A DNA stretch of 64,000 nucleotides, taken from NCBI RefSeq assembly GCF_007655485.1, contig NZ_VJXQ01000003.1, positions 179,742 to 243,741 of the forward strand, read 5' to 3'. The translations under genes and the position numbers were made by a program. The notes beneath the pieces are model-generated. The model was not told the origin of the DNA. It was given only the letters and a program-made list of their open reading frames with translations, and did no database searches. This document shows, piece by piece, positions 4,526-55,931 of this stretch; the stretch's first letter is position 1; every line of letters begins with the position of its first letter. The DNA comes from Halobellus captivus. Its GTDB lineage: Archaea > Halobacteriota > Halobacteria > Halobacteriales > Haloferacaceae.

Positions 4526-4612
4526 GACGTCCAACATCGGCCCAGCCATCCGGCGCCATTCGTTCCGTCATCCGGCGCTAACTGCGGATCGATCTCGGCG
4601 GGCCGCTCGTCG

Positions 4613-5551
4613 TCAGTCCGCACGCTGTGCTTGTGGCTCCGGCCCCTCGTGCCACTGCCGGAGTTCGGCCCGTATCGTCCGGCGCTTCACGAGGACGAAC
4701 CCCGTGAAGATGATCGCGAATCCGAGTACGGTCCGTGGCGCGAGCGACTCCTGGAGGGCGATCCACCCCGAGACGGCGGCGAAGATCGGGATGACGTATT
4801 CCAGGAGGCTCACTTCGACGGGGCCGACGCGGCGCAGGAGCCAGAAGTACAGCGCGAACCCGCCCGCTCCGGCGACGACCGCGAGATACACGAGCGAAAG
4901 CATCGCCTCGCCCGTCCACACGACCTGCGCCAGCGACTCGCCGGGCAGGAGCGCGCTCGTCGTATGCAGCACGACCGCGCCGACGAGCATCATCCACGCC
5001 TGTTCTGTCACGAACGGCATCGTCGCCTGCGAGTCGTGCGTCAGGACCGCGCCGACGGCGAACGCGAGCGCCGATCCGAGCACGAGGCCGATTCCGCGGA
5101 GGTCCGAGCCGACGAGGTTCGATGGATCCGGGTTCGCGATCGTGATGACGCCCAGAAAGCCGAGCCCCACGCCGAGGACGCCGATCGGCCCGAGTCGCTC
5201 TCGTGTCGCCGACAGTCGCGTCAACGCGGGCGTGATGATCGGGATGAGACCGAGGAGCACGGCGGCGACGGCGCTCGTGACGTGCTGCTGCCCGGCGAAG
5301 AGCAGCGCGTGATGGACGCCGATGAGGAGGACGCCGCCGGTCGCAATCGGTCGCCACTCGCGGCCGTCGACGGGGCGGAGCCTGTCACCGCGCCAGACGG
5401 CGAGTCCGAAGAGGAGAACCGCGGCGAGATCGAATCGGAGCGCCGCGAAGAGCGCGGGCGGGAGCCATTCGAGGCCGACCTTCGTCACCATAAACGCGGT
5501 GCCCCAGACGGCGGCCACGCAGAGAAAGACGAGCGCGGTTCGATAACGCAT
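4613..5551 (-). CDS. EamA/DMT-family transporter
   Basis: A 312-aa protein with about ten hydrophobic helices arranged as two EamA halves. Characteristic motifs are [20 protein letters not shown] at the N-terminus and [19 protein letters not shown] in the second half. It is a drug/metabolite-superfamily exporter of unknown substrate in the cytoplasmic membrane. The start [10 protein letters not shown] is used because the 30 extra upstream residues are Arg-rich and not membrane-like. It is divergent from the rpl39e operon. Confidence 0.85.
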
Positions 5552-6809: not shown

Positions 6810-6881
6810 TCGCGGGTTGCGGACGCCTTTCGCGGGTTGTGGACGCTTTCAGGTGTCTCGTGGATGCCTTTCACGTGTGAC
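6810..6881. repeat. Degenerate short tandem repeat between eif6 and rplX
   Basis: Three to four units of about 20 bp: TCGCGGGTTGCGGACGCCTT (6810-6829), TCGCGGGTTGTGGACGCTTT (6830-6849), then decayed units reading GTGTCTCGTGGATGCCTT and TCACGTGTGACG. It fills the first part of the 200-base gap between eif6 and rplX. No coding sense is seen. Confidence 0.65.
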
Positions 6882-11941: not shown

Positions 11942-13021
11942 ATGGAACTGGGGGCCGTTGCCGGGACCGTGTGGCCAGTCCTCGCAGAGGTCGCACCCCG
12001 AGTGGCCCGTATCTCTGTTTTCATCGCGGTCGGCGTCTTTCTCGCGAACGTCACCGTCGAATTCGGCCTCGTCGAGCGGATCGCGACGGTGTCGACGTAC
12101 CTCACGCGACCGGCGAACCTCCCGGACGAGGTGGGTGCCGCGATCGTCACGACAGCGGCGTCGACGACGGCGGGCTACGGGATGCTCGCCGAGTTCCGCG
12201 AGTCCGGTCGGTTGGACGACACGGAGACGCTCGTCGCCGTCACGATGAACACGTTCTTCGGCTTCGTCCAGCATATTTTCACGTTCTACGCGCCGGTGTT
12301 GATCCCGATTCTCGGCCTCGAAGTCGGTCTGCTCTACGTCGGCGCGCGCGCCGCGATCGCGCTCGGAATCACGGTTGCCGGGGTGGTCGCGGGCGCGGTG
12401 TTGCTCTCGGGGCGGTCGGCGGCAGCCGAACCGGACGGTGAAGCCCCGACGACCCCAGACGGCGGGACCGAAGCGAGCGCAGGAGACGGATCGGCCTCAC
12501 CGACTCCCGACGCCGAGACCGGTGACGCCACCCCCAAGACCGTTCGCGCCGACGCCGACGAATCCGATCCACCGGGTTCGGTACTCCGGACCGCCGCGGA
12601 GAAGACGTGGCCGAAGCTGCGGCGCATCGTGCCGCGGCTCGCGATCGTGTACGCGCTCGTCACGCTCCTCGTCCGGACGCAGGATCTGGAATCGGCCACG
12701 GCGTCGGCCGAGCCCCTGACGGCGCTGCTCGGGCTTCCGGGGGCGTCGCTGCCGGTGATCGCGGTCTTCGCGTTCGACACCACCGCGGGTGCCGCGACGA
12801 TCGCGCCGATGATCGGCTCGACGTTCACCCCGCGAACCGCCGTGGCGACGATGCTCCTCGGCGGTATCATCTCCTTCGCGGTGTCGACGTTCAAGCGCTC
12901 GATCCCGTTTCAGTACGGCATCTGGGGACCGGCGTTCGGCTCGAAGGTCATCGCGGTCAACACGGCGCTGAAGGTCGTGTTCATCGCCGCCGCGCTGGCC
13001 GTGCTTCTCGTTCCCGTTTGA
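11942..13021 (+). CDS. Gate-domain (nucleoside recognition) membrane protein
   Basis: A 359-aa protein with two hydrophobic Gate-like halves (about residues 8-155 and 215-358). A hydrophilic, acidic, Pro/Thr/Asp-rich linker of about 60 residues joins them. Motifs such as VTTAASTTAGYGMLAEF and AFDTTAGAATIAPMIGS mirror each other in the two halves. The family is described as nucleoside recognition or spore-maturation-like; the substrate is unknown. It follows the two MgtE halves on the same strand after 80 bases, which hints at ion or metal traffic. Its last codons and stop lie inside a tandem repeat. Confidence 0.75.
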   Translation: MELGAVAGTVWPVLAEVAPRVARISVFIAVGVFLANVTVEFGLVERIATVSTYLTRPANLPDEVGAAIVTTAASTTAGYGMLAEFRESGRLDDTETLVAVTMNTFFGFVQHIFTFYAPVLIPILGLEVGLLYVGARAAIALGITVAGVVAGAVLLSGRSAAAEPDGEAPTTPDGGTEASAGDGSASPTPDAETGDATPKTVRADADESDPPGSVLRTAAEKTWPKLRRIVPRLAIVYALVTLLVRTQDLESATASAEPLTALLGLPGASLPVIAVFAFDTTAGAATIAPMIGSTFTPRTAVATMLLGGIISFAVSTFKRSIPFQYGIWGPAFGSKVIAVNTALKVVFIAAALAVLLVPV

Positions 13022-13085
13022 GCGTCGGGGACGGCGTTCTGTCTGAGCGTCGGGGACGGAGTTCCCGTCTGAGCGTCGAAGGCGA
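13010..13085. repeat. Tandem repeat that copies the 3' end of the Gate-protein gene
   Basis: Three units of 25-26 bp: 13010-13035, 13036-13060 and 13061-13085. Each reads roughly GTTCCCGTCTGAGCGTCGGGG plus ACGG. Unit 1 contains the real last codons and TGA stop of the Gate-domain gene at 13019-13021; units 2 and 3 repeat that TGA in the same context. The array fills the space before the convergent UPF0201 gene. Confidence 0.85.
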
Positions 13086-33320: not shown

Positions 33321-33440
33321 CGAATCGGGATGTACCGAGTGGCAGGAATCAGAACGTACCAAGCCACAGGAATCAGAACGTACCAAGCCGCAGGAACTGG
33401 AACGTACCAAGCCGCGGGAACCGGAGCGTACGGGCGTTTC
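33321..33440. repeat. 24-bp tandem repeat upstream of eif1a
   Basis: Five units of 24 bp. The clearest are 33345-33368, 33369-33392 and 33393-33416, with core GGAATCAGAACGTACCAAGC followed by CRCR. Units at 33321-33344 and 33417-33440 are decayed. Units 1 and 2 differ at one position only, so amplification is recent. The array ends about 15 bases before the eif1a promoter box and could influence it, or be neutral. Confidence 0.85.
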
Positions 33441-38040: not shown

Positions 38041-38151
38041 ACGCCTACTAGCGGAGAGCTTCACACCTACTAGCGGAGAGAGAGAGTAGTCCCACTAGCG
38101 CGGAGAATAACCCCGCTAGCGCAGGGAATCGCCCCGCTAGGGCGTCGCTGT
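38041..38151. repeat. Degenerate 21-28 bp tandem repeat downstream of the thermosome
   Basis: About five units sharing CCCGCTAGCGCRGGGAATMR or CCTACTAGCGGAGAG. They begin near 38044, 38065, 38091, 38112 and 38133, with the core CTAGCG in most. The last two units are the most alike. It lies between the thermosome and a small zinc-ribbon gene. Confidence 0.65.
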
Positions 38152-42925: not shown

Positions 42926-42995
42926 AGTTGAGTATGGTTCCGTATCCTGTTAAAGCGTGCTTCTCTGTCCTGTTAACGCCCGCTTCCGTGTCGTC

Positions 42996-51523: not shown

Positions 51524-52678
51524 TCAGTCGCTACCGGCGGTTTCGCGCCAGTCGCGGACGTCGCCCGCGTCCCGCAGTGCGTCTGTGTAGTACGATAGCG
51601 GATGCGAGATCGTCTCACAGCGCTCGTCGGGATCGACGCAGTCGCCGTAGGCTTTCATCGTCGCGCACGAGGGCGGCGGGTACTGCGTCCCGTTGCTCTC
51701 CGTGAGGTACTCGACCCGCGATTCGATACGCGCTTTGGCGGAATGCTCTTCGCCGTCACCCGATTCGGCGCCGAGAAGCGTTAGCACGTCCTCACTGTCC
51801 ATCCCGAGCGCCACGAGAAACGAGACGAGGGAGAACTCGGCGTGCGTCGAGAGGGATTCGTCCGCGCGCGCGCGCCGCACCAGCGCCTTCATACACGGGG
51901 GGAACAGCGCGGGGACGACAGTTTCGATTTGGCCGGTACTGGCCGTTTCGGTGTCGTTGAGAAGCGAGCGGAGTTCGGCGACGGCGTCTTCGAGCGCATC
52001 GGCGATTGCGTCGCCGCCGTCGGTCCCGCGCACCTCGAACGGGAGGCCCCCCGCGACCCGCCGCTGCACGGCCGCTTCGAGGAGTCGAAGCAGGCCGTCG
52101 GTGGGTATCCGGACCGCTCCGTCTGCGACTTCCCGGTTGACGAGTCGCCACCGCTCGCCCCAGTCGGCGTCGGCCAATTCCAGATACGGTCCGATGCGGA
52201 TCCAGTAGTGCGTGGGGCCTCGTCCGCCGCGGCGCGAACGACCGTCCCCGGGTCCGTCGATCGGTTCGGGACGCACGGCCGCCGAAAGGTCGAACTCGCG
52301 GAGGACGTCGTCGAGCGACGCGCGGGTGATTCCCGTGCTTTGGAAGTCGTCGTCGGCCGCGAAATCGGCCGCGAAGCGTTCGCGCGCCGTCGACGCCTCC
52401 GCAGTCGCGTACTTTTCGACCGCCGCGGGCGTCTCGATCAGCGAGACGAGGATCCGCGCGATCGGGTAGGAGAGCAGTCGTTCGCGGTCGTCCCAGCGGT
52501 GGGGTTCCTCGGCCGCGACGGTTCCCTCCATCAGCGCCCGCTCGACCCGCTCTGTGGCCCGCTCGACCGCCGGTGCGTCCTCCGCGATGAGCGCCGCTGG
52601 CGAGATATCCGCCTCGCGGACGGCCTCGCGCGCGCCCTCGAAGAACGGGTACCGCGCGTACAGCGGGTCCATCGGCAT
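51524..52678 (-). CDS. priL: DNA primase large subunit PriL
   Basis: A 384-aa archaeal PriL that partners PriS to start DNA strands. The N-terminus MDPLYARYPFFEGAREAV is typical. Four cysteines for the 4Fe-4S cluster are visible: C262 (FPPCMKAL), C338 (PPSCATM), C347 and C354 (GDCVDPDERC). A poorly conserved insertion, about residues 138-155, is Gly/Arg-rich. The catalytic PriS is not in this window. Confidence 0.9.
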   Translation of the reverse strand: MPMDPLYARYPFFEGAREAVREADISPAALIAEDAPAVERATERVERALMEGTVAAEEPHRWDDRERLLSYPIARILVSLIETPAAVEKYATAEASTARERFAADFAADDDFQSTGITRASLDDVLREFDLSAAVRPEPIDGPGDGRSRRGGRGPTHYWIRIGPYLELADADWGERWRLVNREVADGAVRIPTDGLLRLLEAAVQRRVAGGLPFEVRGTDGGDAIADALEDAVAELRSLLNDTETASTGQIETVVPALFPPCMKALVRRARADESLSTHAEFSLVSFLVALGMDSEDVLTLLGAESGDGEEHSAKARIESRVEYLTESNGTQYPPPSCATMKAYGDCVDPDERCETISHPLSYYTDALRDAGDVRDWRETAGSD

Positions 52679-52846
52679 CGCCTTCCCGTTTCCACCGCCG
52701 TCGAATAAACACGACGGTCGGAGATTCGCGCGCCGCGCTCCGACCTGTCGGACGGGGTCGACGGACTCGGGAGTCCGCGATACGTCTCGACACCCCGCGA
52801 CACCGACACCGTATCACCTAAGACGGCGGGTCTCCACTCTCTCCCC

Positions 52847-53437
52847 GTGCCGCAGTTCGACTACCCGTGTCCCGACTGCCGGGCCACGAACAGCCTCCAC
52901 AGCGCCGACTGCGACTTCGAGGGGACGCCCTGGCCGGACGTCGAGAAAGCCTACGTCGACATCGTCGCCCGACTCACGGCGGAACCGACCGGGGAGGCCG
53001 ACCTGTATGACGCGATCGACGGCGAGTGGGGAGCGCTCCACCGATCGGCGCTCGAACGGCTGAAACGCGACGAGCGAATCACGGAAGCCAACGACGTGCT
53101 CCGCCTACGCACGGCCGCGGAGTTCCGCGAACACGTCTCGGAGCCGACGCGCGAGCCGATGCGAACCCTCTACCGCCAGGGGAGTGTTCCGGGCTGTCAC
53201 GACAACGCGGTCTTCGCAATGATCGCGTGGTACGAGATGGTCGGGCTCTCGTGGTCGGAGACGCGCGAGAACGTGATCGAATGGCTGCACGAGAGTGGTA
53301 CGTGGGCCCGTGGCGGTTTCGAGGAATCCTCGCCCGAAGCGCTCGTCGACGCGAAGCGTCACGTCTACGAGGCCGGATACGGTTGGAAGGAGAAAGCCGA
53401 AGCGGCGAAGCGCGTGATCGATCGCCATCACGGGTGA
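52847..53437 (+). CDS. Conserved haloarchaeal protein next to priL
   Basis: A 196-aa protein starting with GTG. The first 25 residues carry a possible zinc site (YPCPDCRATNSLHSADC), followed by a helical region with DAIDGEWGALHRSALERLK that resembles a winged helix, and a C-terminal part CHDNAVFAMIAWYEMVGLSW. It is divergent from priL, a pairing that to my knowledge recurs in haloarchaea, suggesting a link to priming, but function is unproven. The stop codon and last codons lie at the first unit of a tandem repeat. Confidence 0.72.
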   Translation: MPQFDYPCPDCRATNSLHSADCDFEGTPWPDVEKAYVDIVARLTAEPTGEADLYDAIDGEWGALHRSALERLKRDERITEANDVLRLRTAAEFREHVSEPTREPMRTLYRQGSVPGCHDNAVFAMIAWYEMVGLSWSETRENVIEWLHESGTWARGGFEESSPEALVDAKRHVYEAGYGWKEKAEAAKRVIDRHHG

Positions 53438-53573
53438 TCCCGTCGAATATACGACAGAGCATCACCGCGCCTGGCTTGATCGAATACGCGACCGAGATCG
53501 AATACGCGACCGAGCGTCACCACGCGTGAACCGGCCGAATACGCGATCGAACGCCATCGTGGATCGGCCGTAC
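53410..53573. repeat. 37-bp tandem repeat that includes the 3' end of the priL-neighbour gene
   Basis: Four to five degenerate units of about 37 bp, each with a CGAATACGCGACCGAGCGTC-like core and a CACCACGCGTGA-like part. Unit starts are near 53414, 53452, 53489, 53507 and 53544; the third is only 18 bp. Unit 1 contains the last codons (ATCGCCATCACGGG) and the TGA stop of the preceding gene at 53435-53437. The array fills most of the gap before the sulfite-oxidase-like gene. Confidence 0.75.
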
Positions 53574-53604
53574 TCATTAACCGTCTGCGACGCTTGGTAA
53601 CACT

Positions 53605-55116
53605 ATGCATTCGAGGGCTGGCCGACGCGGCGTCGTCGGTGCCATCGCGGGCGCGGCGTGGCTCGTCGGACTGTACGTAGCAACACCGCTCGTCGGTGAA
53701 TTCGCCCCGGTCGCGATCGCGGAGGGGATCATCGTTCGGTCGCCGGGGTGGCTGTCGACGCTCGCGATCGGTCTGCTGGGATTTTCGGCCAAGCCGGTGC
53801 TGTTGGGCGGCGTGCTCGTCGGAATCGTCGCTGTCGCGGCGGGTGCGTGGATCCTCTGGCCGCATAATCGACAAGTGGCGACGCCGCTTGCCGTCGTCGC
53901 GGGCCTCGGGCTGACTGCCACGGCGCTCGCGGTTAGCGGTGGGCGGTTCTCGGCGGGAACGGCGCTGGCTCTCGCCGTCGCTGTCGGGTTTCCGCTCGTT
54001 GCGAGCCGGTTGCTCTCGGCGGCCGACCCGTCCCCGGACCGACGGCGGTTCCTCCGCCGACTCGGTGCGGTCGCCGTCGTCGGGACGGGATCGGCCGTCG
54101 TCCTTCGAGCCGGGTTCGACCGCCTCACGGACCGGGGGAGAAGCGCTGCGGTCGCGGGCGGCGACGCGGGCGGTTCCGCCGGTGGCGCTGCGGACCGATC
54201 GACTCCCTCCGTAGGCGATCCGCGGTTCGACTTCGCGGGGATGCCTCCGGCGGTCACACCCGCCGATGAGCACTACGTCGTCGACATCAATATTCGACCG
54301 CCGAGCGTCGATCCCGACACGTGGACGCTCGACATCGACGGCGCGGTCGATGAACCCTACAGCCTGTCGTACGACGACCTCCGCGGGCACGACGCGAGCG
54401 TCGAGCAGATCACGACGATGCTCTGTATCTCGAACACCGTCGGCGGAAACCTCATCGGCACTGCCCGCTGGACGGGCATCCAGTTGTCCGACCTCGTCGC
54501 GGACGCGACCCCCGCTGGCGGAGCGGTCGACGTCGTCACTCACGCGGCCGACGGGTACAGCGAGGCGATCCCGCTCGGTATCGTCGAGCGCGAGGATATC
54601 CTGATCGCTCATCAGATGGGTTCGGCTCCACTCACGGCGGAACACGGGTTCCCTGCGCGGCTGCTCATCCCCGGGCGGTACGGGATGAAGATGACCAAGT
54701 GGATCACGCGGATCGAGCTCTCGGAGACGGAACACGACGCCTACTGGGAGCAGCGCGGCTGGAACGAAGAGGCCATCGTCAACACGATGTCGTACGTGCG
54801 CGGGGCCGAGCGCGACGGCGACAGGGTGACCGTCGGAGGTGTCGCATTCGGCGGCTTAGAGACCGGCGTCGAGGAGATTGCCGCCGTCGAAGTCAGCGTC
54901 GATGGCGGGAACTCCTGGAGTGAGGCGGAGTTGGAGGAGCCGATCGCGCCGCATGCGTGGCGACGCTGGCGGTACGCGTTCGAGGCACCGGACCGAAACG
55001 AGTTCGAGGTCGTCGTTCGGGCGATCACGCGCGACGGAGACGTACAGAGCGAGGAACGGAGCTCGCCGCGCCCGAACGGTGCGACGGGATGGCACAGACG
55101 CTCGGTGAGGGTGTGA
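53605..55116 (+). CDS. Membrane-anchored molybdopterin oxidoreductase (sulfite-oxidase family)
   Basis: A 503-aa protein. Residues 1-145 hold about four membrane helices. A RRRFLRRLGAVAVVG segment near residue 148 resembles a twin-arginine signal inside the chain. The sulfite-oxidase-type Moco domain runs from about 215 to 400, with Moco ligand C274 in MLCISNTVGGNLIG and GIVEREDILIAHQMG; a dimerisation-like Ig domain follows to the end. It probably faces outward and acts on a small oxyanion or sulfoxide. No heme or MsrQ-like partner is adjacent. Confidence 0.88.
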   Translation: MHSRAGRRGVVGAIAGAAWLVGLYVATPLVGEFAPVAIAEGIIVRSPGWLSTLAIGLLGFSAKPVLLGGVLVGIVAVAAGAWILWPHNRQVATPLAVVAGLGLTATALAVSGGRFSAGTALALAVAVGFPLVASRLLSAADPSPDRRRFLRRLGAVAVVGTGSAVVLRAGFDRLTDRGRSAAVAGGDAGGSAGGAADRSTPSVGDPRFDFAGMPPAVTPADEHYVVDINIRPPSVDPDTWTLDIDGAVDEPYSLSYDDLRGHDASVEQITTMLCISNTVGGNLIGTARWTGIQLSDLVADATPAGGAVDVVTHAADGYSEAIPLGIVEREDILIAHQMGSAPLTAEHGFPARLLIPGRYGMKMTKWITRIELSETEHDAYWEQRGWNEEAIVNTMSYVRGAERDGDRVTVGGVAFGGLETGVEEIAAVEVSVDGGNSWSEAELEEPIAPHAWRRWRYAFEAPDRNEFEVVVRAITRDGDVQSEERSSPRPNGATGWHRRSVRV

Positions 55117-55187: not shown

Positions 55188-55931
55188 CTAGTCGCTCTGG
55201 ATCCGCGGCGCGAGCATATACGTGACGTTGCCCTGTCCCTCCGCGACGGCGTAGTGGATCTTGACGGGGAACTCCTCGCCGAGTTCGACGGTGACCTCGG
55301 CGTCCTTCGGGATCGCCTTGTTCATATCCTTCAGGTAATCAAGCGAGAACAGCGAGTCGGCCGTCCCCGCCGTGAGCGCGATCAGGTCGTCGGCGTCGAG
55401 TTCGAAGTCGACGTCGTCGGTGTCGCCCTCGGCCTCGATGTGGAACGCCTCCTCGTCGGCGTCAACGCGGAGCCGGACGTGGTCCGAGACCATGTCGGCC
55501 GCTTTGATCCCGCGGTCGAGCTGCGCCCCTTCGAGGACGATTTCGGCGGCGAGGTCGAGATCCGGGATGTCGGGCTCCTGTCGGATCGAATCGGGGTCGA
55601 TGAGCGCGAGCGTCGAGGAGAGACCGTCCATTCGGATGTTGAGCTTTCGCGTCTCCTCGTCGAGTTCGAGTTCGACGAGCTGGTCGCCCGTGGCCATCCC
55701 GACGAAGTCCTCGAGCTTCGCGAGGTTGACGCCGATGACGCCGCCGTCGGCCTCGTAGGACTCGAAGGCGGCGGCGTCGAGAGAGAGGTCCACCATTCCG
55801 ACGTTCGCGGGGTCGACGGCCCGGATCGACAGTTCGTCCTCGTTCAGCCGGATCTTGCACTCGTCGACCAGCACGCTCACCGAGTCGAGCGCGTCCTGGA
55901 GCGTAGACGCGCTCACGATGGCCTTGAACAT
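55188..55931 (-). CDS. pcn: DNA polymerase sliding clamp PCNA
   Basis: A 247-aa clamp that encircles DNA and tethers polymerase, ligase and nucleases. Two similar halves are seen: [20 protein letters not shown] and the later [18 protein letters not shown]. The start [15 protein letters not shown] and the end [12 protein letters not shown] are typical for haloarchaeal PCNA. One TATA-like TATTTTTAAG lies on the minus strand 28 bases before the start. It converges with the molybdopterin oxidoreductase gene. Confidence 0.96.

Follow-up and report, generated by a model that had tools for sequence, protein, structure and literature searches.

A survey of prokaryotic satellites and minisatellites reported group medians of 0 to 3 satellites per Mb, many of them coding, and described local arrays that arise in place, many without sequence kin (PMC6749651). 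In Haloquadratum walsbyi, short tandem repeats differ in copy number between strains, and repeat-associated indels and "polyrepeats" mark sites where haloarchaeal DNA changes at short direct repeats (PMC3119063). In mitochondria, slipped-strand repeats have expanded spacers by tandem duplication in a compact genome, with subsequent decay (PMC5585954). No dedicated study of intergenic tandem arrays in haloarchaea was found in the open-access literature. The array that we describe here, from Halobellus captivus, resembles all of these systems. It differs from the H. walsbyi case, which mainly concerns deletions between two strains, in that the net change is duplication and that we compared 3′ ends with starts; it differs from the mitochondrial case in that the latter concerns single spacers between tRNA or nad genes and gives no genome-wide pattern at protein stop codons. 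As to the satellite survey, our own figure outside gene interiors was ∼130 arrays per Mb; it was obtained with a looser standard that admits arrays of about two or more decayed copies, and the two counts are not directly comparable.

The region in question, 53410-53573, lies in a 64,000-nt stretch of the genome (the window, to whose positions all coordinates refer). It covers the 3′ end of a gene for a conserved haloarchaeal protein of unknown function, DUF7474 (52847-53437, + strand; Pfam PF24286, E 6e-110), which is adjoined by priL (51524-52678, − strand). A spacer of 167 bp separates the DUF7474 gene from a sulfite-oxidase-family gene (53605-55116, + strand; PF00174, E 2.6e-40, and PF03404), whose product has a molybdopterin domain and, judging by its sequence, a membrane domain. 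The gene for PCNA (55188-55931, − strand) comes next. The last 36 nt before the ATG of the sulfite oxidase gene (53569-53604, + strand; ..GTTATCCC..GGTAAC..ATG) could be aligned in four relatives and probably act as a promoter-proximal block; they lie just past the array, whose end is about 31-45 bp from the start codon. Coding in an overlapping frame was considered and rejected, as the open reading frame at 53026-53529 had no Pfam or NCBIfam match.

Upon comparison of 53380-53605 with itself, the best matches were found at lag 55 (53443-53495 versus 53498-53550, 40/53), at lag 92 (53413-53467 versus 53505-53559, 38/55) and, as an exact match, at lag 18 (53478-53514). Their ungapped self-alignment scores were 27, 21, and 19, respectively. 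Across 2000 Markov shuffles, with every lag from 8 to 119 searched in each, the highest score was 19, so the matches at lags 55 and 92 exceed it. These matches confirm the original prediction of a 37-bp array that begins within the 3′ end of a conserved gene, and they place the array at 53413-53559, with decayed sequence as far as 53573. The unit comprises the last 18 coding bases of DUF7474, the TGA, and 16 bases of spacer. Unit 1 (53417-53453, + strand; TGA at 53435-53437), the source copy, does hold the last codons and stop of the priL-neighbor gene, as had been claimed, and this gene end is conserved in array-free relatives. The "about four" degenerate units said to follow, one of them 18 bp long, proved to be fewer: two full units, the 18-bp one, and a fading part unit. 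Unit 2 (53454-53490, + strand) is a decayed copy that matches unit 1 at 20/37 positions and unit 3 at 27/37. The shortened 18-bp part unit (53491-53508, + strand) is the product of an exact tandem duplication, GATCGAATACGCGACCGA x 2.05 (53478-53514, + strand; Tandem Repeats Finder (TRF) score 74, 100% match). Unit 3 (53509-53545, + strand), also decayed, matches unit 1 at 27/37 positions and retains a TGA at the equivalent position (53527-53529). Unit 4 (53546-53573, + strand) is partial, with 15/21 matches to the gene end and 22/37 to unit 1; the repeat signal stops at ∼53559-53563, fading near 53563-53573. TRF, which had been proposed as a check, reported only the exact 18-bp duplication in this region, because decay has brought the 37-bp units below its score threshold. 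The 18-bp duplication, still exact, is younger than the 37-bp units.

The 21 nt of unit 1 that belong to the gene end match units 2, 3, and 4 at 11, 16, and 15 positions, and only 4 of 400,000 random 21-mers from the genome matched these units equally well in sum. Among 1167 called gene ends, DUF7474 included, a single one agrees equally well with unit 3, and likewise a single one with unit 4. When we searched the genome with the array, no second copy of it was found; the five other matches were single and 16-23 bp long, with E values of 0.03-0.6, and we rejected a dispersed family or mobile element on these grounds. A CRISPR array was likewise rejected since the units adjoin without spacers and are 43-73% identical. 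The array is instead of the minisatellite type, with a unit of more than 9 bp and head-to-tail copies beyond chance (27 and 21 against a shuffle maximum of 19), and it arose in place, having no other copy in its own genome and being absent from the spacers of relatives.

For the comparison with relatives, 80 DUF7474 relatives were kept from a search of genome contigs. The nearest by protein are Halobellus species, and the position of the C-terminus, RVIDRHHG∗, is identical in eight of them. Four Halobellus relatives (rarus, G003, G009, and G004) keep the gene pair with an array-free spacer of 92-111 bp. In three of these the spacer is 92-96 bp, against 167 bp here, an excess of about two units. 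When each unit was tested against the spacer of each relative, 15 of these 16 tests gave no relic at the 10% level of shuffles, the weak exception being unit 4 in rarus (12/200 shuffles). Units 2 to 4 match the DUF7474 ends both of this genome and of the relatives. The array is therefore absent from the sampled related species, and the gene end found there is the ancestral state. Because the four relatives keep the gene pair without the array, the gene end is the source of the copies; and because they keep the gene end, a short spacer, and no convincing traces of the units, the array formed in this lineage by copying of the gene end, with no sign of insertion. The outcome that the original prediction had named as adverse to it, relatives with an unrelated insert and no copied gene end, was thus not what we found.

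The same gene carries arrays of its own elsewhere. An array starts at most 120 nt after the stop in 12 of the 80 haloarchaeal DUF7474 loci, with periods of 14 to 28 bp. In one Halobacteriales MAG (L086), 24 bp at the end of DUF7474 are exactly duplicated in tandem (4565-4615), and another locus (L085) has a near-exact 20-bp duplication across the DUF7474 stop. These two are early stages of a like process at the same gene in other haloarchaea. In the MAG, the gene now stops at an in-frame TAG that is provided by the joint of the two 24-bp copies.

Arrays outside gene interiors were counted with TRF (period of 14 or more) in 1.2 Mb, sampled in stretches from the 3.35-Mb H. captivus genome, in which a self-trained codon model called the 1167 genes. 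We found 155 such arrays with differing units, a median period of 22 bp, and mostly 2-3 copies. Isolated intergenic DNA held 130 arrays versus about 6 after shuffling, and 100 kb of E. coli K-12 yielded one array in the same pipeline. The periods outside gene interiors ignore the codon frame (47/49/59 for remainders 0/1/2 modulo 3); arrays within genes follow it, 190 of their 209 periods being multiples of 3. The window itself holds a companion array of 25 bp x 2.7 (13010-13078, + strand), which starts in the last codons of the gene at 11942-13021 (+ strand), spans its TGA, and stops before a convergent gene, bearing out the claim of a like arrangement with a different unit. In G003 the orthologous convergent spacer carries an array too, but a different one of 30 bp x 2.8, apparently an independent event at the same place. 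Further intergenic arrays of the window, whose units are unrelated, lie at 6810-6850, 33342-33431, 38091-38144, and 42938-42992 and have periods of 20, 24, 21, and 23 bp, respectively; for three of these four, orthologous spacers were available in rarus and G003 and lack the unit.

If the same arrays were placed at random outside gene interiors, 27.2 ± 4.7 would span a stop and 28.5 ± 4.6 would span a start. We observed 30 and 1, respectively. Array coverage was ∼4% over the last 10 coding bases and 12% at 50-90 bp past the stop, and in the 30 bp around a start it stayed below 1%. Copied gene ends, scored at a threshold that was not reached in the shuffled control, occurred downstream of 40 of 766 3′ ends and upstream of 0 of 900 5′ ends in this genome (Fisher p 2e-14), and twelve other Haloferacaceae samples showed the same tendency (25/970 at 3′ ends versus 6/1262 at 5′ ends, p 3e-5). 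Most of the conserved genes with copied 3′ ends retain the position of their stop. The claim that position relative to the stop codon recurs, and not the sequence, therefore stands as a description (40/766 3′ ends versus 0/900 starts), but the stop is not preferred (30 versus 27.2) and the signal is the absence from starts (1 versus 28.5). A mechanism directed at stops was rejected, given that the count of stop-spanning arrays equals random placement in non-gene DNA. The asymmetry between 3′ and 5′ ends seems to arise because arrays avoid starts and promoters, and not because stops attract them.

The arrays are also largely specific to this species. Some 20 of them were tested in the syntenic region, and none had its unit in the orthologous spacers of rarus or G003 (87% median protein identity); in the orthologous spacers of G009, the unit was present for one. 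In four comparisons, array-bearing spacers were longer than the orthologous ones, with median differences of 38, 50, 58, and 82 bp; the corresponding medians for array-free spacers were 0, 0, 0, and 20 bp (p 0.0004-0.004).

We put at roughly 87% the probability that the array is the decayed, lineage-specific product of ordinary short tandem duplication, which survived where it was harmless. A 37-bp segment comprising the end of DUF7474, its stop, and the start of the spacer would have been copied in this lineage on more than one occasion, and the 18-bp piece would have been duplicated later. The first copy would keep the frame and the stop so that the protein is unaltered, and the extra copies would be free to decay as non-coding DNA; a copy across a stop would be harmless because the first copy retains the whole gene end and stop, leaving the protein intact. 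The duplication process would act over all intergenic DNA of the genome, with arrays persisting at 3′ ends and in spacers while selection removes copies that shift the frame or disturb a start codon or promoter, given that duplication across a start would duplicate or displace both promoter and start. Selection is thus the probable cause of the 3′/5′ asymmetry, replication slippage or the fill-in of staggered breaks may be the biochemical cause of the duplications, and the array itself presumably has no function. Taken singly, the array is of an ordinary kind: a lineage-specific tandem duplication that spans a stop codon and has since decayed.

An observation that counts against a neutral reading is the predicted RNA fold of the spacer. 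Over a 195-nt region, the fold is stronger than in shuffled sequences (z −4.0; equaled by 1 of 200 shuffles) and an outlier among array spacers, as might be expected of a structured element, and arrays do recur at 3′ ends. The array could accordingly be a functional 3′ element of DUF7474 (a terminator, an RNA stability element, or a protein-bound 3′ UTR) built by repetition of the gene end. However, the DUF7474 gene is array-free in four relatives, which are without the sequence altogether, and the units of this genome's arrays were not found in rarus or G003. Array spacers generally fold no better than other spacers, Rfam gave no match at the gathering threshold in 52800-54400, and stop-spanning arrays are not in excess over random non-gene placement. 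We therefore regard a functional 3′ element as improbable. The last part of the array (53531-53571) can form a two-part hairpin that is absent in relatives.

Less probable still is that a regulator of the sulfite oxidase gene downstream binds to the direct repeats. Units 2 and 3 and the part unit have a TCGAATACGCGA-like core in common, and the array stops just upstream of the promoter-proximal block. Yet rarus, G003, G009, and G004 have the gene and a similar block ahead of its ATG without the array, the unit comes from the coding end of the neighboring gene, and elsewhere the genome offers only the five single matches noted above. Least likely of all is that foreign or mobile DNA was inserted after the stop, or that the similarity arose by chance in high-GC sequence. 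The spacers of the relatives do bear no relation to the sequence of the array, but unit 1 lies inside the end of a conserved gene, its agreement with the copies is far above chance, and the genome holds no dispersed second copy.

Beyond the single array, the comparison yields a clear rule for a compact genome, in which stops can be spanned by short tandem duplications and starts almost never. Gene 3′ ends are therefore places where coding sequence gives birth to new intergenic sequence. Among the exact two-copy duplications found in 14 stretches, periods cluster at ∼19-23 bp, and 17 of 34 have extensions of 0-3 bp, the rest being longer and some lying within multi-copy arrays. This may hint at a duplication process without need of microhomology.

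Of wider interest is the variation in array density between species. Corrected for spacer length and orientation, array counts in twelve relatives lay between ∼0.1 and 1.3 times the H. captivus rate, a difference that we treat as a lead since each sample covered 100-200 kb with simple gene calls. Within the Haloferacaceae samples (G000, which is H. captivus, and G001-G006, G009, G012, G021, G025, G033, and G039), density differs up to ∼tenfold between related species. Loss of mismatch repair was rejected as the cause of high density because all 17 members of the genus have MutS-family and NucS genes. It is conceivable, though we hold it only tentatively, that a specific process in haloarchaea, both frequent and heritably variable, generates tandem duplications of 15-30 bp, in many cases with no microhomology, at rates that differ up to ∼tenfold between related species through a replication or repair factor, in which case the intergenic arrays would be its fossil record. 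If the density difference holds in whole genomes, the cause of short tandem duplication in archaea becomes testable through comparison of gene content.

Gene order beyond DUF7474 varies as well. The sulfite-oxidase-family gene follows DUF7474 in H. captivus, rarus, G003, G009, and G004; in inordinatus, clavatus, salinus, G006, and Atlit-31R, DUF7474 is followed straight by an apparent PCNA gene end. Second, divergent PCNA homologs (38-59% identity) occur in the family genomes G020, G023, G024, G039, G042, G045, G046, and G048.
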